A stretch of DNA of 64,000 nucleotides. Source: a candidate division KSB1 bacterium. Its GTDB lineage: Bacteria; Zhuqueibacterota; Zhuqueibacteria; Residuimicrobiales; Krinioviventaceae. Location of the stretch: contig JAXHMJ010000003.1 of assembly GCA_034521575.1 (NCBI GenBank), positions 248,001 to 312,000 of the forward strand, in the 5' to 3' direction. How positions within the stretch are numbered: the stretch's first letter is position 1; each line of letters opens with the position of its first letter. This document shows positions 12,897-43,307 of the stretch, piece by piece. The position numbers and the translations under genes are program-made. The notes beneath the pieces are model-generated. The model was not told the DNA's origin. It did no database searches and saw only the letters and a program-made list of their open reading frames with translations.

Positions 12897-15800
12897 TTGA
12901 AAAATAAACTATTTCTCATTCTCTTTTTCTTATTGATGGCCAACGCCGTCCATTCTCAGTACAAGAATCTTCGCTTTACGCATCTCAGTACAGCGGACGG
13001 TCTGTCGAGATCACATGTGACCTGTAGCTCCCAGGATGCCCGGGGATTTATGTGGTTCGGCACGTCGAATGGGCTGAACCGCTATGACGGATACGATTTT
13101 TCCATTTACACCTATCATCAGAATGATCCTTATTCCATCAGCCATAATTATATTTCGTCCATCTGTCAGGACGCGGACGGCAAGATGTGGGTGGGCACGA
13201 GTGACGGACTGAATGTTTATGATCATGCCATGCATCATTTTGAGACTTTTAAACACAGTGATGAGCACCCCGGCAGCATCAGTGACGATCAAATCGAGGC
13301 CATTATTCAGGACAGACGGGGCCGGCTGTGGATCGGCACCCGTAACGGTGGTGTGGACCGTTATGATTCTGAAACCGGTCAGTTTATTCATTATCAACAC
13401 GAAGACGGCCGTTCCGGTATCAGCGGCAATGACGTGCGGGTTCTGTTTGAGGACAGCGGCAACCGGCTTTGGCTCGGGCATTGGAACGGCGGCATTGACA
13501 TCTATGAAGAACAAACTGACACATTTGTTCCGTTGTTTGAGGATCAGCGATTGACACAGTCGGGCATCATGGATATGGCCGAACTTGACTCGTGCCTCTG
13601 GATCGGCACTCAGAGCGACGGACTGTACAAAATCGATCTGCGTGACCTGCGTTTGTCTGCTGTGACCCATTACCGGCAGTCTGGTGAAAACAGCCTGGCC
13701 AGCAACAGTGTTTTGTCGTTGATGCCAGATAAAGACGGACATCTCTGGATTGGCACGGAAAACGGCGGCCTTGATGTTCTGGACGTCAATCGAAATGTGT
13801 TTTACCACAATCAGGTGGATCCGTTTGACCCGGGCGGACTCGATTCCCAATTCTGTTTATTCAATTTACAAGGATCGGTCGGGTAATATCTGGGTGGGCA
13901 CGTTTGCCGGGGGCATTAATCTGATGATGCGCGGCAAGGCCGCCTTTCAGCATTACAAACATATTCCGGGCCGGAAAAACGGTCCGAGTCATAATATGGT
14001 GACCAATTTCCTGGAGGATGAGAGAGGTCAACTGTGGATTGGTACGGACGGCGGCGGTCTGAATGTTTTTGATCCGCAAAATAAAACTTTCAAGCATTAT
14101 ACGGCGGCCAACAGCAATTTGAGCAGTGATGTCATCCTGAGTTTGTTTCAAAATCAGGAAAAGCAGTTATGGGTTGGAACCTGGGCGGATGGATTGTACC
14201 GATTCGATCCAAATTCCGGACGTGTAAAACGTTTCACGCGTGAAACCCATGCTCTGGGAAGCAATAATATTTTTGACATCGAGTCTGATTTCGCCGGCAA
14301 TCTCTGGATGGCGTCGTTTTGGGGCGGTTTGACGTTTTTGGATCCGACCGGTGATTCGACCCGGATTTACCGATCTGAAAACAGCAATCTGAGTGATGAC
14401 GATGTACGGGTGATTTGCCGGGATCATGACGGAACCTTCTGGGTGGGAACGGATGCCGGTCTGGACCACTTTGATCCGGTTAGTAAAAAGTTTGTCAATT
14501 ATCAACACGAACAATCCGATACCGGCAGTCTAAGCAAGGGATTTGTTTTGTCCATTCTGGTGTCCCGGGATTCCACACTCTGGGTGGGCACCATCGGCGG
14601 ATTGAATCGCTTTGACCGTGAAACCGGAACGTTTGAACACTATACCGTCGACGTTGGCCTGCCCAATGATGAGATTAGATCCATTGTTGAAGATAACGAC
14701 GGCATGCTGTGGCTCGGGACCAATAAAGGATTGTCGCGGTTTAATCCGGTGACCGAAACCTTTGTCAATTACGATATGTCGGATGGGTTGCGAATTAATG
14801 AATTCAGTTCCCGAAGCTCGTTGCTGCTGAGCAATGGTTCGCTGGTATTCGGCGGCAATAACGGCTTTAACATGTTCCAGCCCAAAAATCTCGAACGCAA
14901 TTCTTTTATTCCGCCTGTGCTCCTCACCGATTTCAGGATTTTTAACGAGTCGGTAGAGATTGGAGAGCGCGATTCATTGCTGCAGCAGGATATCAGTGAA
15001 ACCCGGGCGATAGAGCTCAGCTACCGTCATTCGGTTTTTTCTTTTGATTTTGTGGCTCTGAACTATATTTCTCCTGAAAAGAATCAATATGCCTATATGA
15101 TGCAAGGGTTTGAATCCAGTTGGAATTATGTGGGCTCCCGGCGCACCGCAACCTATACGAACCTGGATCCGGGTCGTTATGTATTCAAAGTCAAAGCCTC
15201 GAACAATGACGGCATCTGGAACGAAACCGGCGCCTCGGTCAATATTCTGATTCATCCCCCGTTTTGGAAAACCTGGTGGGCTTATCTGATTGAAGCGCTT
15301 CTCGTCCTGGCGCTCATTTCCTTTGTTCTGAATTATTTTATCAGCCGCCAGCGTCTGCGCCATAAACTGAAAATGGAGCACTTGGAACTGGAAAAAATGT
15401 ACGAACTGGATCAGATTAAAACGCATTTTTTCACCAATATTTCACACGAGTTTCATTCTCCGCTGACTTTGATCATTGATCCGCTTGAAAAAATTGTCAA
15501 GACGTTTCATGTGGACGAAAAACTGAGAAACAGTCTGGAACTCATCCACCGGAATGCGCGCCGGCTGCAGCGCATGACCCGCCAGCTGATGGATTTTCAA
15601 AAACTGGAAACCGGAGACCTGCAGCTTTACTTGTCGCGCGGGGATATTGTACAGTTTGTAAAAGCGATTTTTTATTCATTTGCAGATTACGCCTCGCAGC
15701 ACCAGATCACGTTCAAATTCGAATCTGAAATTGAGGACGCGGCTGTGTGGTTCGATCCGGACAAGCTGGACAAGGTTGTGTATAATCTGCTTTCCAATGC

Positions 15801-17026
15801 ATTCAAATTCACACCGGACGGCGGCACCGTCAGAGTCGGCGTATCATTACTGTCGGGGAGTCAGCTGAAACAAATGAATCTGCAGGATAAAGCTGACCGC
15901 TATATTGAAATTCAGGTCCAGGACAACGGGATCGGCATTGCCAAAGATCAGATTGATAATATATTTAAACGGTTTTATCAGATCGATACATCCGATTCAA
16001 CCAACAAACGCGGTATCGGGATTGGCCTGGCGTTCATTTACGAAATTCTGCGGTTATATCAGGGCGATATATCGGTGGACAGCGAGCACCAAAAAGGCAC
16101 CACCTTTACGGTGCGGATTCCGGTCGATGAGCATTATCTGGAAGAAAATCAGCTGGTCGGAGAGTTTAAACATCAACCGATGAACGACTTTTACATGTCT
16201 GATCTGGCGGGATCCATCTCGAAACCATCAAAGCAGAACGGACAGCCCGATGCGCACAAGGGCAAGGAAGATATTCCCAGTATCCTGATTGTAGAGGATG
16301 ATATGCAGATTCTGGATTATATTCAGAAATCTCTGCAGAGCGAGTGCCGCATTTACAAGGCAACGAATGGAGAGGAAGGACTGGAAAAAGGCCGGAAAAA
16401 TGATACCGGATCTGATCATATCGGATATTATGATGCCCGAGATCACCGGAATTGATATGTGCAATCAACTCAAACAGGATGAGAAAACCAGTCACATTCC
16501 AATTATTCTGTTGACAGCCTACACAAGCCAGCAATATCGAATAGACAGTCTGAATCAGGGTGCGGATGCCTATCTCACCAAGCCATTCAGCATAGATGTG
16601 CTGGAGGCGCAGGTTGTGAATCTGCTGGATTCGCGTACAAAATTACGCGAAAGATTTACTTCGCATTTTCTGCTGGAACCGCAAAAAGTCGAGATCACGG
16701 ACGTAGATGAACGCTTTTTAAAACGCGTGATCGATGTCATTGAAAAACATATGTCGGATGCCAAATTTAACGCCGACATGCTGAGCAGCAAAGTCGGTTT
16801 GAGCCGTATGCAGCTGTACCGCAAATTGCGCGGACTGACCAATCAAACCGTGCATGAATTCATTCGCAGTATCCGGCTTAAACGCGCGGTGCAGCTTTTG
16901 GAAGAAAAGCGCATGACCATCACAGAAGTGGCCTATGATGTCGGATTCAATGACCTGACCTATTTTGCCCGCTGTTTTAGAAAACAATACGACAAATCCC
17001 CTTCGGAATATATTTCCAGCCGTTAA
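12897..17026 (+). CDS. Hybrid two-component system sensor-regulator (propeller, Y_Y_Y, HisKA, HATPase, REC, AraC HTH), two frameshifts
   Basis: One gene of about 1375 codons read in three frames. Start TTG at 12897 with AGGTGA upstream. Order: signal peptide (1-20); a double propeller of Reg_prop repeats (GxLWxGT-type motifs such as GKMWVGTSDGLNVYD and GNIWVGTFAGG); Y_Y_Y domain near 720-790; one membrane helix (~793-815); HisKA with FFTNISHEFHSPLTL; HATPase with N box NLLSNAFKFTPDGG and DNGIGI; REC starting ILIVEDD; and AraC-type HTH (GLSRMQLYRKLRGLTNQ). Frameshifts lie near 13845 (TCCCAA run) and 16395 (A-rich run), and homology resumes at once after each. Such proteins sense oligosaccharides in the periplasm and activate the adjacent polysaccharide locus, so it most likely controls the glucan genes downstream. 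Confidence 0.88.
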
Positions 17027-17379: not shown

Positions 17380-18876
17380 ATGAAATCCTTTTATTTTATT
17401 CCTGTTTTTGCTGTGATCTTGACAGCCTGCTCATCATCTGATCACCACAACTATACACAGGTTCAAGTTATTCAAACTTCCAGGCAGGGAGATCAGCTGA
17501 ATGAAACGGCCCGACTCGATCTCAGCGCCGGGAGTGTTTCTGACGCTGTTGAAATCCGTCTTGATCCCGCACAGACGTTTCAGACGCTTGAAGGATTCGG
17601 CGGCTCGTTCACAGAGGCTTCCGCGCATGTCTTGAAACAGTTGAGTGCGGATAAACGCGACGAGGTGATTCGCGCTTATTTTTCTGATCAGGGCTCCAAT
17701 TACACCCTGACCCGGACCCATATGAATAGTTGCGATTTTTCCCTCGGCTCCTATTCCTATGCTCCTGTCGCGGGCGATACGGCGCTGGAGCATTTTTCCG
17801 TTCAGGAAGACAAAGACGACATTATCCCGTTAATCAAGGATGCGATGGCAGTATCTCGGGACGGGTTCAAACTGATTTCCAGTCCCTGGACCGCGCCGCC
17901 CTGGATGAAGACCAACGAGGATTGGTTCGGAGGATCGCTGAAACCCGAATATTATGAGACCTGGGCGCTGTTTTTCGCCAGGTATATCCGTGCCTATCAG
18001 CAGGAGGGTATTCCCGTGTGGGCGGTTACCGTAGAAAACGAACCGCTGGGCAATGATTCCAACTGGGAAAGTATGCATTACACCCCGGAAGAAATGCGTG
18101 ATTTTATAAAGTATCACCTGGGACCGCAGTTTAGCAATGACAATATTGACACCCGTATAATGATATTCGACCAAAACCGCGATCATGTGCAGGAATGGGC
18201 GGATGTCATATTGTCCGATTCCGCCGCCTATGGCTATACCTGGGGTATTGCCGTGCACTGGTATCGCAGCACAGTCGATTGGTTCCCGGAGGCGCTGAAT
18301 GCGGCGCATGAACAGTTTCCGCAAAAACCGCTGCTGAATACTGAAGCCTGCATCGATGCTGAAATTCCCGTTTGGCGCGATGATGCGTGGTACTGGCAGA
18401 AAAATGCCACAGACTGGGGATTTGAATATGCGTCTGAAGAAAACAAACATCTGCATCCCCGCTATGTACCTGCTTTTCGCTATGCACGTGATATTATCGG
18501 CGGACTGAACAGTCATTTGGTGGGCTGGGTGGACTGGAATCTAATTTTGAATGATCAGGGCGGTCCCAATCATGTTCAGAACTGGTGTATTGCACCGGTG
18601 ATCGCCCGTCCGGAGAGCAATCAGGTCTATTACACGCCCTTGTATTATGTGCTGGCGCATTTCAGCCGTTACATGCGGCCGGACGCCAGGCGTATCTCTG
18701 CGCAATGCAGTCATGATGATTTGATGGTCACGGCCTGTATCAATCCGGATCAACGCATGGCCGTGCAGGTTTTTAATCCATCGGAATCCCCGGTGCCCTT
18801 TCAGGTGACCCTGGGTGACAAGCGCGTGTCGCATGAAATTCCGGCGGCTGCTTTGCAGACGCTATTGATACATTAA
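17380..18876 (+). CDS. GH30-family beta-glucosidase/glucanase lipoprotein
   Basis: 498 residues. The N-terminus is a lipoprotein signal ending LTACSSS. The (beta/alpha)8 domain has LEGFGGSFTEASAHVL, a typical GH30 start, then SSPWTAPPWMKT. Acid/base is E221 in VTVENEPLG and nucleophile E322 in LLNTEACID; both positions match the family. A small beta domain closes the C-terminus (MAVQVFNPSESPVPFQVTLG). GH30 subfamilies 1 and 3 act on beta-glucosyl links, subfamily 3 on beta-1,6-glucan branches of laminarin. It is the first gene after the regulator and 16 bases before a mutarotase-like gene. Removal of 1,6 branches from laminarin oligosaccharides in the periplasm is the likely role, but the subfamily is not settled. 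Confidence 0.88.
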   Translation: MKSFYFIPVFAVILTACSSSDHHNYTQVQVIQTSRQGDQLNETARLDLSAGSVSDAVEIRLDPAQTFQTLEGFGGSFTEASAHVLKQLSADKRDEVIRAYFSDQGSNYTLTRTHMNSCDFSLGSYSYAPVAGDTALEHFSVQEDKDDIIPLIKDAMAVSRDGFKLISSPWTAPPWMKTNEDWFGGSLKPEYYETWALFFARYIRAYQQEGIPVWAVTVENEPLGNDSNWESMHYTPEEMRDFIKYHLGPQFSNDNIDTRIMIFDQNRDHVQEWADVILSDSAAYGYTWGIAVHWYRSTVDWFPEALNAAHEQFPQKPLLNTEACIDAEIPVWRDDAWYWQKNATDWGFEYASEENKHLHPRYVPAFRYARDIIGGLNSHLVGWVDWNLILNDQGGPNHVQNWCIAPVIARPESNQVYYTPLYYVLAHFSRYMRPDARRISAQCSHDDLMVTACINPDQRMAVQVFNPSESPVPFQVTLGDKRVSHEIPAAALQTLLIH

Positions 18877-18892: not shown

Positions 18893-19795
18893 ATGGCAAT
18901 GCAACTAAATAATGATCAGGTTAAACTGGAACTATGCGAACCCGGTGAAGTGTATCGCGGGATGCGATTCGACTGGACCGGACAGATCGAGCAGATCACC
19001 TATAAGGGCGGAGAGCCTTATACCTTTTGCACCCGGGAAATTCCCGATGCACCTCTGACCCGGCAGGGGTTCGGGCTGGTCAACGAGTTCGGCATTGATC
19101 AGGCGCTGGGGTACCGCGACTGTCCGGTCGGCGAACAATTTCATAAAATCGGCGTCGGACTGTTAACCCGGGATACTCATGAATCCTATGATTTTTTCAG
19201 GGATTATCCGGTGCAACCTTATGAGTTCAAGGTATCCGCCGTATCAGACACACGCAGTGTATTTACTTGCGAGGCTGCTGAACATCGCGGATATCAGTTC
19301 AAACTCGAAAAACAGATCGAACTGGCTGGTGCGGGTTTTTCTATCCAATACACCTTTACCAATAGCGGTAAAAAGCACATTCGGACCAATGAATATGTGC
19401 ATAATTTTCTGGCCGTGAATGAACAGGAAATCGGTTCAAACTATACTCTGAGGTTTTCATTCCCGATTGATCCAAAGCGGTTTCACGCCAACGTGAATCC
19501 CGAGGCTGCTGTGCAGTTTGACGCCAATCAGGTATTTTGGAAAAAAACCCCGGAACAGCAGTTTTACGTTGCCAATGTCGGCGGCGCGCCGCAGAGCGGG
19601 GCCTCCTGGACTCTTGTCTTTGACAATGCCATCCGGATTCGGGAGCAAGTGGATTTTCAAACCACCGTGAACTTGTGGGGGCATTCCCACGTGGTGAGTC
19701 CGGAATTCTTTTTTGAACTTGATGCGGCGCCGGGAGAGCAGGTGACCTGGCAGCGGCGATACGATATTCTGCCCGAAACCGGAAAAAAAAGCTGA
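18893..19795 (+). CDS. Galactose-mutarotase-like (aldose epimerase superfamily) protein
   Basis: 300 residues, no signal peptide. The beta-sandwich pattern of the galactose mutarotase superfamily is visible: RQGFGLVNEFGIDQALGY, FHKIGVGLLTR, a central TNEYVHNFLAVNEQEIG (the HNF element matches the substrate-side strand) and a C-terminal VVSPEFFFELDAAPGEQVTW. It lies 16 bases after GH30, so the two are co-transcribed. In such loci these proteins interconvert sugar anomers for uptake or phosphorolysis, which would fit a phosphorylase downstream. The catalytic His/Glu pair was not assigned, so a non-catalytic sugar-binding role remains possible. Confidence 0.65.
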   Translation: MAMQLNNDQVKLELCEPGEVYRGMRFDWTGQIEQITYKGGEPYTFCTREIPDAPLTRQGFGLVNEFGIDQALGYRDCPVGEQFHKIGVGLLTRDTHESYDFFRDYPVQPYEFKVSAVSDTRSVFTCEAAEHRGYQFKLEKQIELAGAGFSIQYTFTNSGKKHIRTNEYVHNFLAVNEQEIGSNYTLRFSFPIDPKRFHANVNPEAAVQFDANQVFWKKTPEQQFYVANVGGAPQSGASWTLVFDNAIRIREQVDFQTTVNLWGHSHVVSPEFFFELDAAPGEQVTWQRRYDILPETGKKS

Positions 19796-19948
19796 AAAAT
19801 GCCGATTTGTTACGATAATACGACATTTTGTTACTATGATACGAGCATTTTGAGATTGAATTTCATAAATATGAGATGCAGACTCGGGAGCAGCCCCGAT
19901 AACGAGAGAATATGAGGGTGTATCCCTTTAACGATGAATGGAGAGTTG

Positions 19949-21304
19949 ATGGAACCTGTCAAGCAAAAATTGACCTTTAAGGAAAAAGTCGGATACGGGC
20001 TGGGGGATACGGCCTCTAATTTATACTTTCAAATGTTTGTCAATTTCTTATTGTTTTTCTATACCGATGTGTTCGGTATTCCCGCCGCGGCAGCCGGTAC
20101 TATGCTGATGGTATCGCGCTTCTGGGACGCGATCAATGATCCGCTGATGGGGATTATCTCGGACCGCACGCAGACCAAGTGGGGCAAATTCAGGCCGTAT
20201 CTGCTCTGGATATCACTGCCACTGGCGATAATCGGCGTTGCTACATTTACCACACCGGATCTGAGTGTGACCGGCAAGATTGTTTACGCTTATATCACAT
20301 ACACGCTGATGATGATGGCTTATACGGCGATCAATATTCCCTATTCCGCGCTGCTGGGTGTTCTCAGTCCGAGCTCCCAGGACCGCACAAGCGCTTCGAC
20401 GTACCGGTTTGTGCTCGCATTTATCGGCGCTTTTATCGTGCAGGGGCTGACCTTGCCGCTGGTCAATTTTTTCGGCAAAGGCGATCAGGCCACGGGATTT
20501 CCGTTGACCATGGCTGTTTTCGGTGTCATGGCTGTTATCCTGTTCTATCTTACATTCAAAGGCACCCGCGAACGGGTTCAGCCTCTGGCAAATCAGCAAA
20601 CATCGTTGAAAGATGATCTGAAAGATTTACTTAAAAATCGTCCGTGGATGCTTCTGTTGTTCATGGGTGTGTTTACACTCGGTTATGTGATTGTCAGAAA
20701 CGGTTCGATCATGTACTATTTCAAATATTATGTCAACAATGAAGTCATGGCTTCCGTGTTCATGGTGTCCGGGACCGTGGCGATTATTGCCGGTATTACC
20801 TGTACCCAGTTTTTTTCCAAAGTGTTTGGCAAAAAACGCTTTTATATCATTGTCATGGCACTAACCACGGTTTTGACGGTTTTGTTTTACTTTATCCCCA
20901 AAGAGCATTTGGTTCTGGTGTTTGTCATGCACATTATTATTTCGTTTGTCATGGCCCCCCAGGCGCCGTTGTTATGGGCCATGTACGCAGATACGGCGGA
21001 CTATTCCGAGTGGAAGAATGAACGCCGGGCCACGGGACTGGTGTTTTCCGCGGCAACGTTTGCCCAGAAATTCGGAATTGCATTGGGCGGCGGTATGGCC
21101 GGCTGGATGCTGGCGTTGTTCGGTTTTATCGCCAACCAGCCGCAAACTCCGGATACCATCACCGGAATCCGGTTGATGATGAGTATTATCCCGGCAATCG
21201 GGACATTGATCGCGGCGGTTGCAGCCATTTTCTATGAACTTGATGATGATAAAATGGCTCAGATTGAAAAGGATTTGGAAACAAGACGTGCTCTGGAACA
21301 ATAA
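19949..21304 (+). CDS. GPH (glycoside-pentoside-hexuronide):cation symporter, MFS-like
   Basis: About 451 residues with twelve hydrophobic segments. GPH hallmarks: FKEKVGYGLGDTASNLYFQ at the N-terminus, DAINDPLMGIISDRTQTKWGKFRPY (quoted here as a span: the D-P-x-x-G and R-x-G-K-x-R-P loop) after helix 2, and the cytoplasmic loop ADTADYSEWKNERRATG between the helices of the second half. Symport of a glycoside with Na+ or H+ into the cytoplasm is the family role. An ATG exists at 19934, but the ATG at 19949 has GGAGAG at the right spacing. It sits between the mutarotase-like gene and the large cytoplasmic enzyme, suggesting import of short glucan oligosaccharides as that enzyme's substrate. Confidence 0.9.
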   Translation: MEPVKQKLTFKEKVGYGLGDTASNLYFQMFVNFLLFFYTDVFGIPAAAAGTMLMVSRFWDAINDPLMGIISDRTQTKWGKFRPYLLWISLPLAIIGVATFTTPDLSVTGKIVYAYITYTLMMMAYTAINIPYSALLGVLSPSSQDRTSASTYRFVLAFIGAFIVQGLTLPLVNFFGKGDQATGFPLTMAVFGVMAVILFYLTFKGTRERVQPLANQQTSLKDDLKDLLKNRPWMLLLFMGVFTLGYVIVRNGSIMYYFKYYVNNEVMASVFMVSGTVAIIAGITCTQFFSKVFGKKRFYIIVMALTTVLTVLFYFIPKEHLVLVFVMHIIISFVMAPQAPLLWAMYADTADYSEWKNERRATGLVFSAATFAQKFGIALGGGMAGWMLALFGFIANQPQTPDTITGIRLMMSIIPAIGTLIAAVAAIFYELDDDKMAQIEKDLETRRALEQ

Positions 21305-21322
21305 ACCGTTACAGGACTATTG

Positions 21323-24300
21323 ATGAATCGTGATCCAATATACATAGGCAACACAACATTACAGATCAACTCGCGAGATGTGCAGGGATTTGCGGATTGC
21401 AAGGAAAATGGTCGTGATTATCGCATAGAACATTACGATCAGATGCGTCCCTTTTTTATGAATATTGTCAGCGATTCTGATCTGTGGATGTTTATATCCA
21501 GCAACGGCGCCTTGACTGCCGGACGCCGGGATCCGGACCACGCGTTGTTTCCCTATTACACGGATGACCGGATTACATGATTCTCATGATATTACCGGAA
21601 GTAAAACACTGCTGCTGGTCGAGAAAAGCAGCAAAATATATTTGTGGCAGCCTTTTTCGTCCTCTTGTGAGAATTTGTACAAAACAGAACGTGTGTTGAC
21701 CAAAAATGATATCAGCCATCAAGTGACATTCAGAGAGGTCAATCTTGATTTAGAGTTGATATTCGAGTACACCTGGACCTCTTGTGATCGTTACGGATTT
21801 GTGAAAAAATCGCATATCCGCAATTTAAACACACACCCCAAAACAGTCCGTATTCTGGATGGCATTCAGAAACATATTGCCGTTTGGCGCCGATCAGACA
21901 TTTCAAAACCAGTTCAGTACACTCCTGGATGCTTACAAACGCAATGAACTGCAGCCGGAAACCGGATTGGGATTATATACATTGAGTTCGATTCCGACCG
22001 ATAAAGCGGAACCTAACGAGGCTTTAAAGGCCACTACCGTGCTGGTCTTGCGGTTTAAAGTTTCGATAAAATTCTCCTCTCCTCTCAACAGATTGCAGCT
22101 TTCTGCAAGGGGGGACCCGTAACACCGGAAACGCTGGTCAAGGCTGAACGCGGCGCTTATTTTTTGCACTCGGAATTGGTTCTCGAGGCAGAGGCCGGTT
22201 CATCCTGGTATATGGTTGCTGATCTGAATCAGGATCAGTCCGATGTTGCGGGTTTGCAGCGGCTGTTGGCGTCGGATACGGATTTGGTTGCTTTAATTGA
22301 AAACGAAATCGACCATGATCGGGAGAATCTGCGCCGGAAAATTGCAAGGTCTGATGGATTTCAGCTGACACAGGATGATTTGGGTGCATTGCGCCATACG
22401 TCGAATGTACTGTTTAATATAATGCGCGGCGGGATTTTTGAGGATAGTTACTACATCCAGACCCGCGATTTTAAGCGGTTTATAAAAACAGCAAACCAGC
22501 TTGTTTTTAAAACACATCAGGATTTTCTGCATTCACTACCGGAAACCATAGAGCTCTTTGAGCTTCGCGATCAGGTCGGTCGCCTAAATGATATTGATCT
22601 TGAACGTCTTTTGTACGAATATCTCCCCCTGAGTTTTAGTCGACGGCATGGCGACCCCAGTCGACCCTGGAACCGGTTTTCTATCAAAGTCAAAGATGAA
22701 ACCGGCGAAAAAAGCCTCAATTATCAGGGCAACTGGCGCGATATTTTCCAAAACTGGGAAGCGCTGGCTCTCTCATTTCCCGGCTATCTGGAACATATGA
22801 TTACCAAGTTTGTCAACAGCATGACCGCGGATGGATACAATCCCTATCGGGTCCTGCGCGATGGATTTGACTGGGAAGTTCCGGACACCAACGCCTGGAG
22901 CAATATCGGTTACTGGGGTGATCATCAAATTGTTTATCTGCTGAAATTACTCGAGCTTTCTTTTAACTATCATCCGGAGCATTTGAAAGCGCTGCTAAGC
23001 CGGGACATGTTTACCTATGCGCGCGTTCCCTATCGGATCAAACCCTATCAGTCCCTGGTTCATGATCCGCACCGCACCATTGAATTTGATCATCAGCAGG
23101 ATTCTGATATCAGAGCGGATGTTGCAGAGCTGGGTGAGGACGGCAAATATCTGCTGGATGAACAGAAACAGCCCTGTAAAGTGAATTTATTCGAGAAACT
23201 GCTGGTGCCGGTTTTGGTCAAACTGTGCAATTTTGTTCCCGAAGCGGGTATCTGGATGAACACGCAGCGTCCGGAATGGAACGATGCCAATAACGCGCTT
23301 GTGGGGTACGGCACTTCAATGGTGACCCTGTATTATCTGCGCAGGTACACTGTGTTTGTCAGTGAACTGTTGCAGCAAAGTGATCCCGAAGAACTGACTG
23401 TATCCGGAGCGGTACACAGTCTTTATCATGATTTATATACTGCATTCAAATCGTTCGAACCGGATTTGAACGGGACGTTGACGGATGCACGGCGCAAAGA
23501 AATCCTAAATGAACTGGGAGCCGCCGGTGAACAGCACCGAAAGCGCGTATACGAAAACGACTGGGGCAACCGGGACAAGGTGAAAAAAGCGCATGTGATT
23601 GCGTTTCTGGGCCTGGCGCTGCATCATCTGGATCACTCTATTTCAATGAACCGCCGGTCTGATGATCTCTTCCATTCCTATAATCTGATTCGCTTTAACA
23701 ATAATGAGGGCATCGAGATCCGTCATTTATATGAAATGCTGGAGGGCCAGGTCAGTGTTTTATCTAGTGGATACTTGTGCTTTGAGGATTCGATTATTTT
23801 GTTGAATTCTCTGAGAAAGAGCAAATTATACCGCAAAGATCAGGACAGCTATTTGCTTTATCCGGAGCGTTCGCTGCCGGATTTTATGGAAAAAAACAAT
23901 ATACCGGATGAACAGGTCAAACGGTCCGAGCTGTTAAAGACGCTGCTGAAAAAAGCCAATGAAGACATTGTGAAACGCGATCCTGACGGACAGGTGCATT
24001 TTGCCGGAACTCTCGGCAATGCCGGCAAACTTGAACAGGCGCTTGAACAACTGGATTCGCAGTATCGGGATCTGGCGAGCAGGGAAAAAAGTATTGTACT
24101 TGATATATATGAATCTGTTTTTGATCATCAGTCGTTCACCGGGCGTTCCGGTACCTTTTATAAATACGAAGGTCTGGGCAGTATCTACTGGCATATGGTT
24201 TCTAAGCTTGCTCTTGCCGTACAGGATGTATTTTATCGGGCGCTGGAAGACGATGCAGATCGTTCAATATTGGACAAACTGAAAAATTATTATTACGAGA

Positions 24301-29478: not shown

Positions 29479-29490
29479 CGTCTTCTCTCA

Positions 29491-29526: not shown

Positions 29527-29595
29527 TTCAACGAATTTACCAGGCTTTTACCTGTTCGGATGAACAGGTGTTTTATTTTAGGATATGGAGTTACG

Positions 29596-32595: not shown

Positions 32596-34377
32596 ATGAG
32601 AACCGAGAAATGGCTGATTGTTATTTTGATCATGATAGTGACCGGATCGCTGTCGGCACAGGGCTGGCAGCTGGTGTGGCAGGATGAATTTGATACTGAA
32701 ATTTCCGATGACTGGTTCCTGGAAACCGGGTACGGCGGCTGGGGCTGGGGCAATGATGAATGGCAGTATTATCAGCCCGAAAATGCGTTTGTACGGGACA
32801 GCTGTCTGGTGATTCGCGCCGAGGTGGACGGCGAACCCGGCAAACGCGACCGCAGCATTACATCCGCGCGCATGAAAACCCAGGACCGCTATGAATTCAA
32901 CTATGGCAAAATTGAAGCCCGGATCAAACTGGACCGCGGCAAAGGACTCTGGCCGGCGTTCTGGATGCTGGGTTCCAATATGAGCTGGCCGGATTGTGGT
33001 GAAATTGATATCATGGAGAATATCAACGGTGAAAGTACCATTCACGGCACAGCACACTGGGTGTCCGGTGGTCAACTTGCCAGCTATGGACAATCAGTAC
33101 GTAATGTGGATATTGAAGCATTTCACACCTATACAGTGATTTGGGATCAGCAGTACATTCGCTGGGAATTTGACGGGCAGGAATACAACCGTCTTTCCAT
33201 CACCGGTGCAAGTTTGAGTGAATTTCATCAGCCGTTTTACATTATTTTGAATATGGCAGTCGGCGGACAGTGGCCGGGTCCCCCGGATTCCACGAGTCTG
33301 CCCGCCGAGATGCATGTGGATTATGTGCGCGTGTATATGAACAAAGGCCCGCGTCTGGGACTGCAGCCGTATGAACTGAATTTTGCTTTGTCAGGTGGCG
33401 GCTCGGCATCCGTTGAACCACAAACTGTTACTCTGGTAAACACCGGATCGGATACTTTGCAAAATGTAACGGTTAGCTCGGACGCTGACTGGATCGATGT
33501 CATCTGGAACGATCATGAGGGCAATGAACAGTTTTTTGATGTGGCGCTCAATTCACAGGCAGACGCCTTGTCACTGGGCACCTATTCAACGTTATTGATT
33601 GTTCAGGCGGATGACGCTCCCTCTGATACGGTCTCTGTTGATCTGCAGGTGGGCACCAATATCGTGTTGAACAATATCGCCAAGGCTTCCTCGGTAAGCA
33701 AAGATGCTTCAGGTGATGAAACCATCAGTGCGCGCAATGTGAATGACGGCGATATGCAGAGCCGCTGGGTGAGTGAGGCCGGCGCCGAGCAATGGGTGTC
33801 CCTGGATCTGAATAAACTGTTTATCAATAAATTTTACACTGTAAGCACGGTCAATGTCTGCTGGGATGAAGCCTACGCCGGCGAGTATGAAATCCAGGTG
33901 GCCAACACCTCGGATTTTTCCGATTATGCCGTGATCGCCGAGGTCACAGACGGTGACGGCGGCGTGGACCGGTTGAGCACCGATGCCTCGGTCGCCGGCA
34001 AATACCTTCGGCTCTATGCAAAAGCCGGCGGAGAAGAAAGCGGCTATGGTATCTATGAGCTGCAGGTGTTCGGCAAAGTGAGTACCGGTGTGGAGCAGCG
34101 ACAGGCCCATGTCCCCGATCAGTTCAGGCTGACGAATGCGCCGAATCCGTTCAATCCGGTGACCACGATTTCTTTTACTTTGCCGGCAAAGCAGCGTGTT
34201 GATCTGGCGCTTTACGATATGACCGGTCGGCGCGTGGCCACTCTGGTGTCAGAGGAAAGGGATGCAGGTACCTATCAGATCGACTGGAATGCCGGAAATA
34301 GATCCTCCGGACTGTATATTTGCAGGCTGACCACCCCCGGAATGAGCGTGACCCGCAAGCTTGTTCTGTTGAAATAA
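32596..34377 (+). CDS. GH16 laminarinase (endo-beta-1,3-glucanase) with BACON-like and F5/8C domains and sorting domain
   Basis: 593 residues. Signal peptide (1-21, SLSAQ), then a GH16 domain opening with WQLVWQDEFDTEISDDWFLE. The catalytic motif is E136-I-D138-I-M-E141 (GEIDIMENI); the extra Met in E-x-D-x-x-E is the form seen in laminarinases of this family. A BACON/Ig-like strand region (~255-350) and a discoidin-type (F5/8C, CBM32-like) domain (~355-495) follow. The sorting domain has NAPNPFNPVTTISFTLP and ends RKLVLLK. The enzyme should cut internal beta-1,3 bonds of laminarin at the cell surface. 42 bases after the GH55 stop, so co-transcription is likely. Confidence 0.92.
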   Translation: MRTEKWLIVILIMIVTGSLSAQGWQLVWQDEFDTEISDDWFLETGYGGWGWGNDEWQYYQPENAFVRDSCLVIRAEVDGEPGKRDRSITSARMKTQDRYEFNYGKIEARIKLDRGKGLWPAFWMLGSNMSWPDCGEIDIMENINGESTIHGTAHWVSGGQLASYGQSVRNVDIEAFHTYTVIWDQQYIRWEFDGQEYNRLSITGASLSEFHQPFYIILNMAVGGQWPGPPDSTSLPAEMHVDYVRVYMNKGPRLGLQPYELNFALSGGGSASVEPQTVTLVNTGSDTLQNVTVSSDADWIDVIWNDHEGNEQFFDVALNSQADALSLGTYSTLLIVQADDAPSDTVSVDLQVGTNIVLNNIAKASSVSKDASGDETISARNVNDGDMQSRWVSEAGAEQWVSLDLNKLFINKFYTVSTVNVCWDEAYAGEYEIQVANTSDFSDYAVIAEVTDGDGGVDRLSTDASVAGKYLRLYAKAGGEESGYGIYELQVFGKVSTGVEQRQAHVPDQFRLTNAPNPFNPVTTISFTLPAKQRVDLALYDMTGRRVATLVSEERDAGTYQIDWNAGNRSSGLYICRLTTPGMSVTRKLVLLK

Positions 34378-34561: not shown

Positions 34562-35626
34562 ATGACAGCAAAAAAAAATATATTGTATATTTTCAGTGTG
34601 TTCGTTGGTATTTCCCTTTTCTTCGGCTCCTGCCGCAGGGCATCCGATCCTCCATCGGTTTCTCTCAAACAGGACGAGACAGAGTTGATAGCGGATGTCG
34701 CCAAAGCCGTGTCTTATTCCGGATTCCGGCGGGGACAGCATCCGGACCGCGGCGACGGCGCCGTGAATCCCGGTGATGAGGAGATTCTGGAGGATCTGCA
34801 CTTGCTAAAGCAGACGGATTTTCGTCTCGTGCGCTTGTACGATTCCGGGGAGAACTCACGCTCCGTATTGAGAATGATCAAAGAAAATGATCTGGACATC
34901 AAGGTCATGCTGGGCATCTGGCTGGACGCCGAGGTCAGCAATCACGAGGGCTGTCCGTGGCTGACTGAACCCATCCCCGAATCGGTTTTGGCTGAAAACA
35001 AACGCAAGAACAAGCGGGAAATTCAGCGGGCTATTCAATTGGCCGATGCCTATGATCAGGTTGTTGTCGCGGTAAACGTGGGCAACGAAGCGCTGGTCTC
35101 CTGGAATGATCATATGGTGGAAACCGATACCGTCATTTCCTACGTCAAACAGGTCAAACAGTCCATCGCCCAGCCTGTGACCGTCGCTGAAAACTATGTC
35201 TGGTGGGCGGAACAGGGCGCAGAACTGGCTGAGCAAGTGAATTTTCTGGCGGTGCACACCTACCCGGTGTGGGAAGGAAAGGATATTGACCAGGGATTGT
35301 CCTATACGATCGAAAATTTATCAAGGGTCAAAAACGCTCTGCCTGAACAGTCGATTGTCATTGCAGAGGCGGGATGGGCAAGCGAGGCGTCCGAGTTTGG
35401 CGAACGCGCCAGTGAGAAAAAACAACTGCAATACTATCGGCAGTTAATGGGATGGGCATCTGAAATGAATATCACCACGTTCTGGTTCGAAGCTTTTGAC
35501 GAACCCTGGAAAGGCGATCCGAACAATCCCCTGGGCGCTGAAAAGCACTGGGGCCTGTTTACCGTGGACCGGGAACCCAAGCTGGTGATGCGTACGCTCT
35601 ATCCGGATCTGTTCCAAACCGAATGA
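34562..35626 (+). CDS. GH17-family beta-1,3-glucanase lipoprotein
   Basis: 354 residues with a lipoprotein signal (LFFGSC, then RRASD). The TIM barrel begins at KAVSYSGFRRGQHPDRGDGA, the bacterial GH17 entry. The acid/base is E176 in VNVGNEALVSW and the nucleophile E269 in SIVIAEAGWASE, matching the GH17 signature with E-x-G-W. FLAVHTYPVWEG and ITTFWFEAFDEPWK are also typical. Bacterial GH17 lipoproteins are exo- or endo-acting beta-1,3-glucanases that shorten laminarin oligosaccharides. It sits among GH55, GH16 and the DUF5107 genes, and the AT-rich A-run start region has GAGGAG upstream. Attachment to the outer or inner membrane cannot be decided from the lipobox. Confidence 0.88.
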   Translation: MTAKKNILYIFSVFVGISLFFGSCRRASDPPSVSLKQDETELIADVAKAVSYSGFRRGQHPDRGDGAVNPGDEEILEDLHLLKQTDFRLVRLYDSGENSRSVLRMIKENDLDIKVMLGIWLDAEVSNHEGCPWLTEPIPESVLAENKRKNKREIQRAIQLADAYDQVVVAVNVGNEALVSWNDHMVETDTVISYVKQVKQSIAQPVTVAENYVWWAEQGAELAEQVNFLAVHTYPVWEGKDIDQGLSYTIENLSRVKNALPEQSIVIAEAGWASEASEFGERASEKKQLQYYRQLMGWASEMNITTFWFEAFDEPWKGDPNNPLGAEKHWGLFTVDREPKLVMRTLYPDLFQTE

Positions 35627-35748
35627 TTTGTTGATATTAACCGTTACAGGCTGGTATCATGTATTGGACAGGATTGAACCTGCAAATTATACCGCGCCGG
35701 TTGCGCGGACACAATTTTCGACAACCGCAATTTCGAGAGGATTTTTTT

Positions 35749-37485
35749 ATGACAAGAGCATTTTTGATGATACTGATTCTGATAATCCCCCTGAGCCTGC
35801 CCGCAGCCGTGAGCATGAGAGATACGACGATTGTCTGGCATACCTTTGATTATCAATTAACAGACGATAATATGATGGAATCCTGGTCTGATACCCCCTA
35901 TGATACGGTCAGCCGCACGTTTCAGGGGCTGGTCCTGGAAAATGATTATCTGCGTGTGACCCTGGTGCCCGGGTACGGCGGCCGCATCCTGTCCATGATT
36001 TACAAACCGACCGGACACGAGCAGCTGTATCAGAATCCCGTGGGCACGCCGTACGGGATCGGAGAGGACTGGTTTTACTACAAATGGCTCATGGTTTACG
36101 GCGGCATATTCCCGACGCTGCCGGAGCCGGAACACGGCAAAGCCTGGCTGCTGCCCTGGACGGCTGAGGTGATCGCACAAACTAAAGACAGCGTTTCCGT
36201 GCGCATGTCCTGGCGGGACAGTGTGGCGCTGGATGACATCAATACCGGCAAGTGGAAATATGGTGTGACCGGATTAACCTGCGATTTTACAGTAACGCTG
36301 GTCAGCGGTCACAGCTCTCTCAAGGCAGATGTCATCGTGTCTAATGATGCCGCGATAGAGCTGGATTATGAATACTGGACCTGTCTGACTCTGGCGCCCG
36401 GATCAGATCCGCAAACCCCGCGCTGTACTCGGGGTGCGGAACTCGTCATTCCTGCATCCAAAGTCAAAATTCCGCCCTGGTATCCGGATATTGCCGGTCA
36501 GGAGGAATCAATAGCCGGCGAACGCAATATGTATACGTTTAACGTCCTGCGTGACTGGGAAAACTGGGTGAATGACGGCATTGCCTATCCCTGGGATGAC
36601 CCGAATGCCGATTACTGGGGTGTGATCAACCAGGACAATGGCGAGGGACTGATTCGGGTGGCGGATAATCGTGTGACGCCCGGTATCAAAATCTGGGCCT
36701 GGGGATATCCGGCGAGTCAGGATATCGATCCCTTTGCACAGCCGCAGGTGAGCCGCCGGCCGTATATTCGACTGTGGGCCGGTCATTCGCGTGAATTCTT
36801 TGAACCGGCGCAGATCGGACAAACCACGCAAAAGCAGTGGACTGAATTGTATGCGCCGACCGTCGGACTTGCCGGCGTGTCGCATGCCAATTTGCATTTC
36901 ATTGCCGACCTGAAACTCACTGAAGAGTCAGAGGCTGCTCTGATTGAATTGATGTTCGTCCCCGCAGATCTTGAATCCGACTGTGATGTCGCTCTGGAAA
37001 TTACCGGCGATCATCCACAGGCCTTGCAGACTGAACACATCACACCGGATCCGGTGAACGGTAATCGGATTGTTGCTGAATTACCGGCGGATCAAACCTG
37101 GTCTGTGAATGACAGCGTCCGGTTTGTGCTCAGCAGTGCGGGACGCGCTCTGGCCGGGACCTGCAGTCTGCACGAATGGTCGACACGTGTTGAAACAGAA
37201 GAACAGATTGTCCGCGGACATAAACTTTATCAGAATTACCCCAATCCGTTCAATGCCGCTACCACCATTGAATATCGAATCGCTTCGGATGCGCATGTCA
37301 GGATTACGGTCCTGAATATGCTCGGTGAAACGGTAGAAACGCTGGTGAATCGACAGCAGCATGCCGGTCTGCACAGTATTCAATGGACGGCTGATGCGGC
37401 GAGTGGCATTTACTATTATAAACTTGATGTTCGAACGAATACGGGACAATTTACTGATCTCGGAAAGATGGTTCATGTAAAATAA
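35749..37485 (+). CDS. Secreted DUF5107-like protein (mutarotase-like fold) with sorting domain
   Basis: About 578 residues. The frame is open from 35659, but ATG 35749 has GAGAGGA upstream and begins a signal peptide (LMILILIIPLSLPAAVS). The main domain has LVPGYGGRILSMIYKPTGHE, WFYYKWLMVYGGIFPTLPEP and IKIWAWGYPASQD, the pattern of DUF5107-type galactose-mutarotase-like proteins. The C-terminus carries the sorting domain (LYQNYPNPFNAATTIEYRI; final GKMVHVK), so it is exported to the surface. No function is established for the domain; sugar binding or an epimerase-like role is suggested by fold only. It pairs with the next gene, which carries the same kind of domain. Confidence 0.7.
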   Translation: MTRAFLMILILIIPLSLPAAVSMRDTTIVWHTFDYQLTDDNMMESWSDTPYDTVSRTFQGLVLENDYLRVTLVPGYGGRILSMIYKPTGHEQLYQNPVGTPYGIGEDWFYYKWLMVYGGIFPTLPEPEHGKAWLLPWTAEVIAQTKDSVSVRMSWRDSVALDDINTGKWKYGVTGLTCDFTVTLVSGHSSLKADVIVSNDAAIELDYEYWTCLTLAPGSDPQTPRCTRGAELVIPASKVKIPPWYPDIAGQEESIAGERNMYTFNVLRDWENWVNDGIAYPWDDPNADYWGVINQDNGEGLIRVADNRVTPGIKIWAWGYPASQDIDPFAQPQVSRRPYIRLWAGHSREFFEPAQIGQTTQKQWTELYAPTVGLAGVSHANLHFIADLKLTEESEAALIELMFVPADLESDCDVALEITGDHPQALQTEHITPDPVNGNRIVAELPADQTWSVNDSVRFVLSSAGRALAGTCSLHEWSTRVETEEQIVRGHKLYQNYPNPFNAATTIEYRIASDAHVRITVLNMLGETVETLVNRQQHAGLHSIQWTADAASGIYYYKLDVRTNTGQFTDLGKMVHVK

Positions 37486-37624: not shown

Positions 37625-40600
37625 ATGAGAACAAAAACTGATTTTAAAAGCCGGATCACAGCTACTGCGACGATTATTGTCCTGCTTGCATTGTACCCGA
37701 TGCTCAACACGGGCATGGCGGACATTACGGTGCGGGAAGACTCGCTGGTCATCCCCACCTATCTGGTGAATCCGCCCAATCCCATGCCGCGTTTTTACGA
37801 GGGCGGCACCCATCAGGGCGTGCAGCGGCGGATGTATCCCTATCCGATGAATGATAATCTGACGGGGGTCAAAGAGGACCGGTCGTATCATATCGTTGAA
37901 TTTGGAAATGAATATATTGATCTGGATATCATGCCGGGGCTGGGCGGACGTATTTATTCGGCCCTGGACAAGACCAACAATTACAACTGGTTTTACAAAA
38001 ACAAGGTGATCAAACCGTCGCTGATCGGTATGCTCGGGTACTGGATTTCCGGTTCCAATGCCTGGGGCTTTCCGCACCATCACGGTCCGAATACGGTCAA
38101 GCCTATGGATTACAAGGTGGTTGATCATGATGACGGCAAGCTCTACCATCTGGATCGCCAATACGGACCGGCGTCACCGCATGCGCGTGATCGTCGGATA
38201 TACCATTCATCCGAATTCATCGCTGGTGGAAATGACCATTCGTCCGATGAATCCCACGCCGATTGTCAATTCTTTTTTGTTCTGGGCCAATCCATCCGTG
38301 CATGTGGACACCACCTATCAGGTGATTTTTCCGCCGTCTGTGCGCTATGTCACCCAGCACGCCAAACGCGAAATGACCACCTGGCCGGTTGCGGATCGGC
38401 GCTATAACCGCTATGACTATGAGGGTGTGAATATCAGCTGGTGGAAAAATATCGGTGTGCCGTCTTCGTTTTTTCCTGGGACCCGCAGGAAGACTATTTC
38501 GGCGGCTATGACCACGGCAAAGAAGCGGGTACGGTGTGGATCGGCAATCATCACACCTCACCGGGCATGAAGTTCTGGGCCTGGGGCAACAATCCGGGCG
38601 GCGACCGCGCCAATGCCGGACTCACCGACAATGACGGTCATTACATTGAACTCATGGCCGGCGCCTATACGGACAATCAGCCGGATTACAGCTGGCTGCA
38701 GCCCTATGAGGGTAAAGATGTGACCATGATCTGGTTCCCGGTGCGCGAACTGGGCGGACTGAAATACGCCAACCGCAACGGCGCCTTGAATTTCGAGGTT
38801 TCAGATCAAACCGCGGCCGTGCGTATCAACACCACGTCGCCGCACGACAACGCGGTGGTGGAGCTGAGAGCAAACAAAGAGATTCTGTTTGAACAATCCA
38901 TCGGAATCAGTCCGGCCGACCCTTACACTGCCGATGTCGATCTGCCGGCCGGCGTGACCGAGGATGACTTGACAGTGTCGTTGACCGGCGCTGACGGGGA
39001 GGTGCTGCTTACCTACAAACCCGCTGATTACAAGCAGTCGGATGAGCCCATGCCGGAACCGCTGGAGCCGCCGGCAGAACCGGAGGAGATTGAAAGCGTG
39101 GAAGAGTTGTATCTCACCGGACTGCGTCTGAACCAGTTTTACAATGCATCTGTGGATCCCATGCCTTATTACCAGGAAGCCCTGAAACGCGATCCCGGCA
39201 ATTACAATGTCAATACCCAGCTCGGAATTCTGGCCATCAAGGATGTCAATTGGGATGCGGCCGAGTCGTATCTGCAGACCGCTGTGGACCGGATTACCCG
39301 AAACTATACCCGCGCCATAGACGGCGAAGCGCAGTATTATCTGGGATTTGTACACAAGGCACAAGGTGATTTGGAAAAAGCCTATGATCTCTTTTACGCT
39401 GCCTCCTGGAGTTCCGCCTGGCATACCCCGGCTTATTATCAGCTAACGGAAATCGACTGTCAGCGCGGTACATTCGAAACCGCTCTGGAACATGTGAATC
39501 GGGCCCTTTCCACTCAGACCCATAACTTGCGCGCCTTAAACCTGCGGGCAATTATTTTGAGAAAACTGGGACAGCATGAAAAAGCTATGGCTCAGAGCAA
39601 AGCCATTCTGGAAATGGATGTCCTGAATCATCAGGCCGTCAATGAATGCGTTTTGAATCTGAGAGCAGCCGGACAAGCCGACGCGGCGCGGGAGCGTCTA
39701 ACGGAATTGTCCGGGATCATGCGCGATCAGGTGCAGTCGTATCTGGAGCTGGCGGTGACCTATGGCGATGCCGGATTTTACGCCGAGGCCTCGGATGTGC
39801 TCGGGCGTCTGCAATCCAAAGGCGAGACCTTTCCCATGCTGCATTATTATCTGGGGTATTACGCCGATAAACGGGGTGAATCTGAAAAAGCCCTGGACTA
39901 TTACAAAACAGCATCCCGCATGCCGCACAGCTACTGCTTTCCGTTCCGCTGGGAATCCGTGCACGTGCTCAACGAGGCGATGCAATCCAATCCGCAGGAT
40001 GCCAAGGCGCCCTATTATCTGGGTAATCTGTTTTACGAGCATCAGCCGCAAAAAGCGGTTGACTATTGGGAAAAATCGCGTGATCTGGATGACTCGTTCT
40101 ATATCGTACACCGCAATCTGGCTCTGGCCTATGAAAAGATTCAGGGCGACGTACAAAAAGCCATGCAAAGCATGGAACGGGCTGTGGCCGCAAACAGCAG
40201 CGATCCGCGATTGTTGTTTGAAATGGATGAATTGTACGAAAAGAATAAAGAGTCCTCGCAAAAGAAATACGCGCTGCTGAAGGAAAATAAAGAAACCGTC
40301 GCTGAACGCACCGAGAGCCTGTTGCGACTGGCCACGCGTTCGGTTGAAGTGGGCAAATACAATGAGGCGCTGGACATCCTGCTCAATAACGAGTTCCCGC
40401 AGTTCGAGGGCGGACGTGAAATGCAGGACACCTATTTGAACGCGTACACCCTGCGCGGACTGGAGTTTTTCGGGAACGGCGACTATGAACGCGCCCTCGA
40501 GGATTTTGCCACCGCCATGGCCTATCCCGTCGGCCGCTGGGGCCGTTCCCGCTGGGCGCAGTTTCACTATCTGACCGGTCTGGCGCATGAGAAACTCGGT

Positions 40601-40957
40601 CACGGGAATCAGGCCGAAGAAGCGTTTCAAAATTGTCTGAATGTAGCGGTCGAAAAACGCGGCCGCGATCAGGAATACCTGTATTATCACGGACTGGCTC
40701 TGGAAAAACGGGGACAAACCGAAAAGGCAAAAGATTTGTTTGAAAATCTGCTGGCCCGCGCCCAGTCGCAGGATGACGACCGCTTTTTCCGCCAGTTTGA
40801 AGGCGGATTGTCCCGCGACCAGCAAAAGGCTGCCGATCACTATTTAGCAGGTCTGGCTTATAAAGGTCTGGGACACATGGCCAAGGCACAGCAGGAATTC
40901 AAACAGGCTGTGGAACTGGATCCGGGTCACGTCTGGGCGGATTATTATTCGAAATAA
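37625..40957 (+). CDS. DUF5107 domain protein with long TPR array, two frameshifts
   Basis: About 1110 codons. A signal-like hydrophobic N-terminus (residues 14-30) precedes a DUF5107 domain (EYIDLDIMPGLGGRIYSALD, SGSNAWGFPHHHGPNT, TVWIGNHHTSPGMKFWAWGN). After a Pro/Glu-rich linker (PEPLEPPAEPEEIESVEE) comes an array of about 15-20 tetratricopeptide repeats up to the end (NYNVNTQLGILAIKDVNWDA ... AQQEFKQAVELDPGHVWAD). Frame changes occur near 38145 (FKLY then TIWIANTDRRHRMRV) and at a T run near 38475. The DUF5107-TPR architecture recurs in carbohydrate loci of FCB bacteria but its task is unknown. Exported scaffold or sugar-processing assembly factor is speculation. 49 bases separate it from the GH9 gene. 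Confidence 0.75.
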
Positions 40958-41006
40958 GCGTCCGGATGGATCATGTTATAATGAGTGACTAACCAGGAAG
41001 GACATT

Positions 41007-43307
41007 ATGAAACAATTCAGTTGTATTTTAATGCTGTCCGTGCTTTTACCAGCGCTGGCCGCGGCCGGAGACCTGCCGGACATGCCTATGCGTTTTGATC
41101 CTGCGAATACCATGGAATATTTGTGGGCGCAAAAACCGGTGCTCGAGTCCCGGTCTTTATCCGGCATGGAAAGCATGGACGAATGGCGGCACGAGGGATT
41201 CGGGTCTCTCAGATTGTCAAGAGATCAGGTGAATAAGGGCGAAACCTCGCTGCTGTTGACTTGTCCCACTAAAGGTAAAGAGCCTGGTGATGAAAATGGC
41301 CGGCCGTTCGGCGCCGCCCGCGCCGTTTATCCGGTGGACAACCAGGACTGGAGCGACTGGAACCGCATCAGTTTTCAGGTATACCCGGATCTGCCCGGAT
41401 TCCGTACGGTGGTGCTGAGTCTGGTGTTTCACAATGACGGCGAAGAAAAAGTGCCGGGACCCTATGACCGCAACGGTTTAAACTATGTGCTGCTGGAAAA
41501 CGGCAAATGGAACGAGGTGTACTGGGAAATCGAGCATCTGGGCCGCGACCAGGTCACGGCCGTTGAACTGCGCTATCGGCTGCAGGGCAATGAGCCCGGC
41601 GCGACCGATACGGCGGCGTATTATTTTGACGAGATGAATCTGGAAAAAGTCGAGCCCGATCACTATGAAGGCTGGAATGTGGCGCCGGGACAGATCGCCT
41701 ACAGCCATGTCGGCTATGCGCTTGATTTCCCGAAAACCGCGCTGGTATCGGATGTTGACGCAAAACAGTTCTCGCTGCTGAACGTGAAAACCGGCGCAAC
41801 GGTGCTGGAAAAACGCATCGACATCCGGAAAACACCGCTGGGCCGGTTCCAGGTGCTGGATTTCAGTGAAATCAATGCGCCCGGAACCTATGTGCTCAGC
41901 GCCGGAACTCTGCAAACCCGGCCGTTCAGGATCGCTTCCTTTGATGACCTGTACCGCAGCACCATTGTCAAGAGCATCAATCATTTTTACTGTCAGCGCT
42001 GCGGCACCGAGGTGCCCGGTATTCACAACGAGAATCACCGCGACTGGACCTGTACGCACGGCGACAGCACGATTATGATCAATGGCGGCTGGCACGATGC
42101 CGGAGATTTGTCCCAGGGCCTGACCAATACCTCCGAGGCTGTCTATGCCATGCTCAGGCTGGCGGAAACGTATCCAGAGCCGGACTTGTCGCAGCGACTG
42201 AAACAGGAAGCGGAATGGGGACTGGACTGGGTATTGAAAACCCGCTTTGGAAACGGCTACCGCTGTACCTGGGCCACCATGGATTTCTGGACCGACGGTA
42301 TTCTGGGTAATGTGGATGACGTGTCGATGCGCGCCCGCCATAGTTCCTATGACAATTTTGTCGCTGCCAAGACCGAAGCCATGGCCGGCATGGCGCTGCA
42401 GGACACGGATGCGTTCAAGGCGGATTACGCCCTGCAGTGCGCCCGCGAGGACTGGCGGTTTGCACGGCAGCGCCACCGCTATTTCAATATCGATGTGGCC
42501 GCAGCCGCCCTGAATGCGTCATTAACTCTTTATGAGGCGACCGGGGAAGAGCCGTATAAAGACGCGGCTGCAGAATACGCCGATTATATCCTGGCGTGTC
42601 AGCAGAGCGAACCGTTGTCAAAAGGCGCGCAATTCAAAGGTTTCTTTTATCGGGACTCCACACAGCAGGAGATTCTGCATTACGCGCACCGCGGACACGA
42701 ACAGGAATCGGTAATGGGACTGGTGCGCCTGCTTGAACTGTTTCCGGAATCCCCGAACGCGGAAAACTGGGAGTCCGCTGTTCGCATGTACGCAGAGTAT
42801 TACAAACAGATTTCCGTGTACACCGATCCGTATTTCATGATCCCGGCCGGGATCTATGACCTGCGCACCGCCGAAGATAAAGTCGAGAAAGAACAAATCA
42901 AAAACGGTGTCAAACTGGACCCGCATTATTATCTGAAACGGTTTCCGGTGTGGAAAACCTTTCGCGGCAATTGCGGGACGAGTATCTCCCAGACCAAAGG
43001 CCTGGTGCGGATCGGCCGATATCTGAACGATCGCGATCTGATGGTCCTGGGTTATCATCAGCTGCAGTGGGTGCTGGGACGCAATCCGTTCAATCAAAGC
43101 CTGATGTACGGCGAAGGCTATCGATTCGCCTCCCAGTACAGCGCCATGAGCGGCGATATCGTCGGCGGACTGCCCGTGGGTGTACAGACACATTTCAACC
43201 GCGATGAACCCTATTGGCCGACGGAAAACTGTTACAACTGGAAAGAAATTTGGGTGCACCCCTCCAGCCGCTGGCTGTGGATTATGAGTGATTTTTATGC
43301 CGAGTGA
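41007..43307 (+). CDS. GH9-family glycoside hydrolase (endoglucanase-like)
   Basis: 766 residues. Signal peptide 1-20 (LPALAAAG). The N-terminal ~200 residues form a jelly-roll-like carbohydrate-binding module (SWNRISFQVYPDLPGF-type strands), then a CelD_N-type Ig domain (PGQIAYSHVGYALDFPKTAL) and the (alpha/alpha)6 catalytic domain. GGWHDAGD carries the paired aspartates D364 and D367. Near the C-terminus WPTENCYNWKEIWVHP supplies E740 at the place of the GH9 acid. GH9 enzymes mostly cut beta-1,4-glucan, though some act on mixed-linkage glucan or are exo-acting, so the locus may handle mixed beta-1,3/1,4-glucans as well as laminarin. Last gene of the cluster, followed by a terminator. Confidence 0.85.
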   Translation: MKQFSCILMLSVLLPALAAAGDLPDMPMRFDPANTMEYLWAQKPVLESRSLSGMESMDEWRHEGFGSLRLSRDQVNKGETSLLLTCPTKGKEPGDENGRPFGAARAVYPVDNQDWSDWNRISFQVYPDLPGFRTVVLSLVFHNDGEEKVPGPYDRNGLNYVLLENGKWNEVYWEIEHLGRDQVTAVELRYRLQGNEPGATDTAAYYFDEMNLEKVEPDHYEGWNVAPGQIAYSHVGYALDFPKTALVSDVDAKQFSLLNVKTGATVLEKRIDIRKTPLGRFQVLDFSEINAPGTYVLSAGTLQTRPFRIASFDDLYRSTIVKSINHFYCQRCGTEVPGIHNENHRDWTCTHGDSTIMINGGWHDAGDLSQGLTNTSEAVYAMLRLAETYPEPDLSQRLKQEAEWGLDWVLKTRFGNGYRCTWATMDFWTDGILGNVDDVSMRARHSSYDNFVAAKTEAMAGMALQDTDAFKADYALQCAREDWRFARQRHRYFNIDVAAAALNASLTLYEATGEEPYKDAAAEYADYILACQQSEPLSKGAQFKGFFYRDSTQQEILHYAHRGHEQESVMGLVRLLELFPESPNAENWESAVRMYAEYYKQISVYTDPYFMIPAGIYDLRTAEDKVEKEQIKNGVKLDPHYYLKRFPVWKTFRGNCGTSISQTKGLVRIGRYLNDRDLMVLGYHQLQWVLGRNPFNQSLMYGEGYRFASQYSAMSGDIVGGLPVGVQTHFNRDEPYWPTENCYNWKEIWVHPSSRWLWIMSDFYAE

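Follow-up and report, generated by a model that had tools for sequence, protein, structure and literature searches.

A GH149-containing gene run without SusD, probably a laminarin-type glucan utilization locus, in the uncultured candidate phylum KSB1

Introduction

Does a bacterium without SusD use a laminarin-type glucan through a new kind of locus, or through one that has already been described elsewhere? The question is raised by a run of genes at positions 12897-43307 of the window, the 64,000-nucleotide stretch of DNA analysed here, which comes from a genome of candidate phylum KSB1 (5.26 Mb in 5 contigs). The phylum has already been reported to be rich in glycoside hydrolases (PMC9765126). 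Judged from its sequence, the run is very probably a locus for the utilization of a laminarin-type beta-1,3(1,6)-glucan, and one of a known kind (GH149 "type II"/CUT-locus). Beta-1,3-glucan is a polymer of algae and fungi. The layout has been described before, and what is added is the host phylum, which is uncultured.

Gene content of the locus

A sequence-only reading had described a run from a hybrid regulator to GH9 on a single strand. Every gene that it named is present, in the order that it gave and on the + strand, and GH30, the MFS_2 symporter, the TonB receptor, GH16, GH17, the two DUF5107 proteins and GH9 are borne out by searches of Pfam and of PDB sequences. The gene families and their order, like the lack of SusD, are read directly from the sequence:

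12897-17026, +, HTCS-type regulator (Pfam: Reg_prop propeller, Y_Y_Y, HisKA, HATPase, receiver and AraC HTH)
17380-18876, +, GH30 glycosidase (PF02055, 285 bits)
18893-19795, +, aldose-epimerase (mutarotase)-like protein (low-confidence fold match)
19934-21304, +, GPH-type sugar symporter (MFS_2, PF13347, 358.9 bits)
21305-24819, +, predicted GH149 beta-1,3-glucan phosphorylase in five frame pieces (NF058639, 6HQ6)
24816-27711, +, TonB-dependent receptor of the TIGR01782 type with a CarbopepD_reg domain (frameshift near 27060)
27805-29478, +, secreted beta-helix-like protein with a type IX secretion tail
29490-29521, +, terminator-like hairpin after the beta-helix gene (14 pairs, 8 of them G-C, then a T-rich tail; pattern match only)
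29509-32553, +, predicted GH55-like double beta-helix exo-beta-1,3-glucanase with a C-terminal SGL propeller, in at least three frame pieces
32596-34377, +, predicted GH16 laminarinase with an F5/8-type C domain and a type IX secretion tail (PF00722, PF00754, PF18962)
34562-35626, +, predicted GH17 beta-1,3-glucanase (PF00332)
35659-37485, +, DUF5107a, a secreted single-domain DUF5107 protein with a type IX secretion tail (PF17128)
37625-40957, +, DUF5107b, a frameshifted DUF5107-TPR protein (PF17128 and TPR)
41007-43307, +, GH9 enzyme with a CelD_N domain (PF00759, PF02927)

The hairpin suggests that the run may be divided into two transcription units. Domain matches in the beta-helix protein are confined to Por_Secre_tail and FlgD_ig. 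The genome carries type IX secretion genes (PorU, 853 bits, and SprA_N), which fits the tails on this protein, GH16 and DUF5107a.

A predicted GH149 phosphorylase and its symporter

The gene at 21305-24819 had been read as a "GH-Q-like" enzyme and a putative intracellular phosphorylase. The phosphorylase part of that reading is supported by the sequence matches, but the family is a different one: by similarity the protein is a GH149 beta-1,3-glucan phosphorylase, its central piece alone reaching 1165.8 bits against NF058639, an NCBIfam equivalog model with a cut-off of 1150, and the match to PDB entry 6HQ6 scoring 835 bits. Frameshifts lie near 21560, 21865, 22077 and 24487. Mapped by means of intact relatives of ~1160 aa, the gene passes through 21305-21574 in frame 3, 21549-21869 in frame 1, 21862-22080 in frame 2, 22074-24491 in frame 1 and 24484-24768 in frame 2, with nothing missing. 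The symporter that precedes it shares 62-75% identity with symporters encoded close to GH149 elsewhere in the phylum, in several genomes. The combination of symporter and phosphorylase had been put forward as a novelty; the pairing is in fact common in GH149 loci.

For the mutarotase-like protein, Pfam and NCBIfam give no match, and no signal peptide is apparent by eye; its fold match to galactose mutarotases comes from a low-confidence model. Relatives occur in three GH149 loci (L029, L037 and L086). In two of these the gene stands directly before GH149 (L029:6591-7493; L037:8194-9147, in a record titled Lentisphaerae), and at L086:17607-19508, inside the GH149 locus of a Bacteroidetes genome, a mutarotase-like domain is fused to a GH2-type TIM barrel.

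A TonB receptor without SusD

The frame-joined receptor matches TIGR01782 ("TonB-Xanth-Caul") at 354.2 bits, above the cut-off of 310, and gives no match to the SusC model TIGR04056, which does recognise the SusC of another GH149 locus (L040) used as a control. Because this is no SusC-type receptor, a SusD partner is not expected, and the earlier statement that there is none is borne out by an HMM search with the Pfam models PF07980 and PF14322, which returned no match in the cluster or in the whole genome. PF07980 matches were found in 30 of 82 genomes of the phylum, but in just one of ten in the family to which this genome belongs. A profile built from phylum sequences detected SusD in 9 GH149 loci; owing to its limited sensitivity, we do not take this share as an estimate.

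The locus thus combines the components that define a GH149 "type II" cluster, namely a TonB receptor, GH16, GH17, a regulator and MFS_2 with no SusD, and is not a SusCD-type PUL, having neither a TIGR04056 receptor nor a SusD homologue.

Predicted glucan-active enzymes

The beta-1,3-glucan (laminarin) substrate proposed earlier gains support from GH149 together with three of the hydrolases. The nearest solved relatives of GH16 are endo-beta-1,3-glucanases (4CRQ, E 4e-70, with other laminarinases matching too), which places it among the laminarinases, and GH17 is nearest to 6FCG, a GH17 enzyme (E 3e-31). The GH30 protein, which over 495 aa shares 52% identity with the GH30 encoded by a laminarin locus of a bin that carries the label Formosa sp. 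Hel1_33_131, is a probable beta-1,6-glucosidase that would debranch laminarin, as the Formosa GH30 does (PMC6246565).

In the GH55-like protein, Pfam finds two Pect-lyase_RHGA_epim domains and SGL. Its best PDB matches are indeed GH55 enzymes, with entries 5M5Z, 3EQN and 8JHH among them (5M5Z at 7e-11, Lam55A at 1e-10); these matches are significant but cover mainly one stretch of about 60-90 residues, which is also matched by a phage appendage protein (2e-6). The GH55 gene of the sequence-only reading therefore stands as a weaker call than the other families.

Proposed working of the locus

The substrate, the locations of the proteins and the flow of sugar through the locus are inferred. GH16, and perhaps DUF5107a, would act on the glucan outside the cell by virtue of their type IX secretion tails, and the TIGR01782-type receptor would import oligosaccharides without a SusD lid. 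GH30 may remove the beta-1,6 branches; the chains may be shortened by GH17 and GH55, either on the cell surface or in the periplasm. Short oligosaccharides would then be carried into the cytoplasm by the GPH symporter, where GH149 would convert them with phosphate to glucose 1-phosphate, saving ATP. The mutarotase-like protein might handle anomers, and the HTCS would sense the sugar.

Alternative readings

Could the lack of SusD, in the cluster and in the genome, mark a new architecture in which another component takes SusD's place? The sequence-only reading had presented the SusD-free arrangement as new, yet "type II" clusters with the same layout were published in 2018 (PMC5827456), which refutes the novelty. 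Moreover, the receptor is not a SusC, and 7 of the 24 other GH149-bearing genomes examined give no SusD match either; we regard this reading as very improbable. A different question is that of substrate. GH9 usually targets beta-1,4 links, which makes a mixed-linkage beta-1,3/1,4-glucan of the lichenan type a possible substrate: GH9 with its CelD_N domain, at the end of the run, and GH16 would be the endo-enzymes, and GH149 would deal with the beta-1,3 parts. However, GH16 is nearest to laminarinases and not to lichenases, GH149, GH17, GH55 and GH30 point to a beta-1,3/1,6-glucan, and a relative of GH9 was found in none of the 93 GH149 loci compared, so that the membership of GH9 in the glucan module is doubtful. 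A mixed-linkage locus is accordingly unlikely, and the laminarin-type reading is preferred.

It could further be argued that the locus has decayed and is non-functional, the frameshifts being real. Five genes are frameshifted in the assembly (the regulator with 2 breaks, GH149 with 4, the TonB receptor with 1, the GH55-like gene with 2-3 and the second DUF5107 gene with 2), or roughly twelve breaks over ~30 kb. Only some of them lie at homopolymer runs of at least four, and such runs alone are therefore no proof of sequencing error. Against decay, alignments with relatives run straight through the breaks in the regulator, in GH149 and in DUF5107b, with no sequence lost and identity normal on both sides, and many genes in between are intact. 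The regulator, for example, lies in three frame pieces (12897-13886, 13750-16455 and 16298-17026), and the relatives that stand beside GH149 in two further phylum genomes (L024 and L025; 47-73% identity) align across both breaks. Outside the cluster, too, there are overlapping partial frames, including kinase pieces, and genes at 1496-2849, 45442-47391 and 58050-60553 look frameshifted, so that assembly errors are likelier than pseudogenes. We consider errors of assembly the likeliest cause of the breaks and a decayed locus improbable; frame-joined sequences were used for searches only.

Two different DUF5107 proteins

Both DUF5107 proteins noted earlier are present in the run, but they are different things and do not form a joint feature of the locus, of which only DUF5107a is plausibly a part. 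Just two full-length relatives of DUF5107a were found among the 82 phylum genomes and 24 others, both at GH149 laminarin loci of Bacteroidota (39-44% identity): one directly follows GH149 (L040), and the other shares a contig with GH149 at a distance of ~17 kb (L171/L086). Since the 24 genomes from outside the phylum had been picked for carrying GH149, this association is suggestive and does not amount to a statistic. The PDB relative of DUF5107a, 5CD6, is named simply as a TPR-domain protein; structure prediction for DUF5107a reached a pLDDT of 32. In the literature searched, a single paper mentions DUF5107. DUF5107a and its two relatives at GH149 loci are the small new element of the locus. 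It is conceivable, although on balance doubtful, that DUF5107a is a member of a so far unrecognised subfamily, made up of glucan-active proteins (enzymes, epimerases or binders) dedicated to the beta-1,3-glucan loci of KSB1 and Bacteroidota. The one testable lead raised here is the occurrence of a secreted DUF5107 protein in laminarin loci; no long-standing question is settled.

DUF5107b was rejected as a glucan-locus protein. Its orthologues (57-68% identity) adjoin housekeeping genes, the closest relatives standing beside NadA, RsmF, DNA-repair and ketoacyl-synthase genes, and it is a widespread DUF5107-TPR protein, probably not specific to the locus. Together with GH9 it probably lies outside the glucan module.

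Comparison with other loci

Among 93 GH149 loci (90 distinct and three duplicates), relatives of GH17, MFS, GH16 and GH30 were found near GH149 in 66, 64, 58 and 47, respectively, many of the MFS matches being distant (22-30% identity). The corresponding counts are 3 for the mutarotase-like protein and 1 each for GH55 and DUF5107.

The published type II clusters, mainly from Alteromonadales, contain a TonB receptor with no SusD named, GH149, GH16, GH17, a histidine kinase, a response regulator and an MFS protein of pfam13347, i.e. MFS_2 (Kuhaudomlarp et al. 2018, PMC5827456). All of this is shared by the KSB1 locus, which differs in its phylum, in having a one-piece HTCS regulator, and in the additional GH30, GH55-like, mutarotase-like, DUF5107 and GH9 genes. 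GH149 clusters of Bacteroidetes, with and without SusCD, also carry GH3 or GH30_1 (PMC5827456). The CUT loci of Xanthomonas, in which no SusD was found and which function without it, likewise comprise a TonB receptor, an inner-membrane transporter, an enzyme and a regulator; their substrates are sucrose and plant-wall sugars, in contrast to the beta-1,3-glucan predicted here (Blanvillain et al. 2007, PMC1790865). The laminarin PULs of Formosa and Muricauda have GH16, GH17, GH30, GH149 and an MFS transporter in common with the KSB1 locus (PMC6246565, PMC13188888), whereas the TonB receptors of Formosa are accompanied by SusD-like proteins. With the KSB1 locus, the known range of the SusD-free GH149 layout comes to include an uncultured phylum. 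The GH149 locus L043 belongs to a record that bears the title Candidatus Brockarchaeota archaeon; the locus holds no other relative of the KSB1 cluster, and contamination of the bin is possible.

Surroundings of the locus

A large intact lipoprotein gene, its product resembling alpha-2-macroglobulin as judged by sequence, lies divergently at 7060-12681 (- strand) and adjoins the regulator. Downstream, a low-GC stretch at 45442-48323 holds tandem, closely similar genes for PD40 beta-propeller lipoproteins, several of them apparently frameshifted, and at 54506-57803 (- strand) there is a pentose-phosphate operon that comprises glucose-6-phosphate dehydrogenase, OpcA and a 6-phosphogluconolactonase-type protein.
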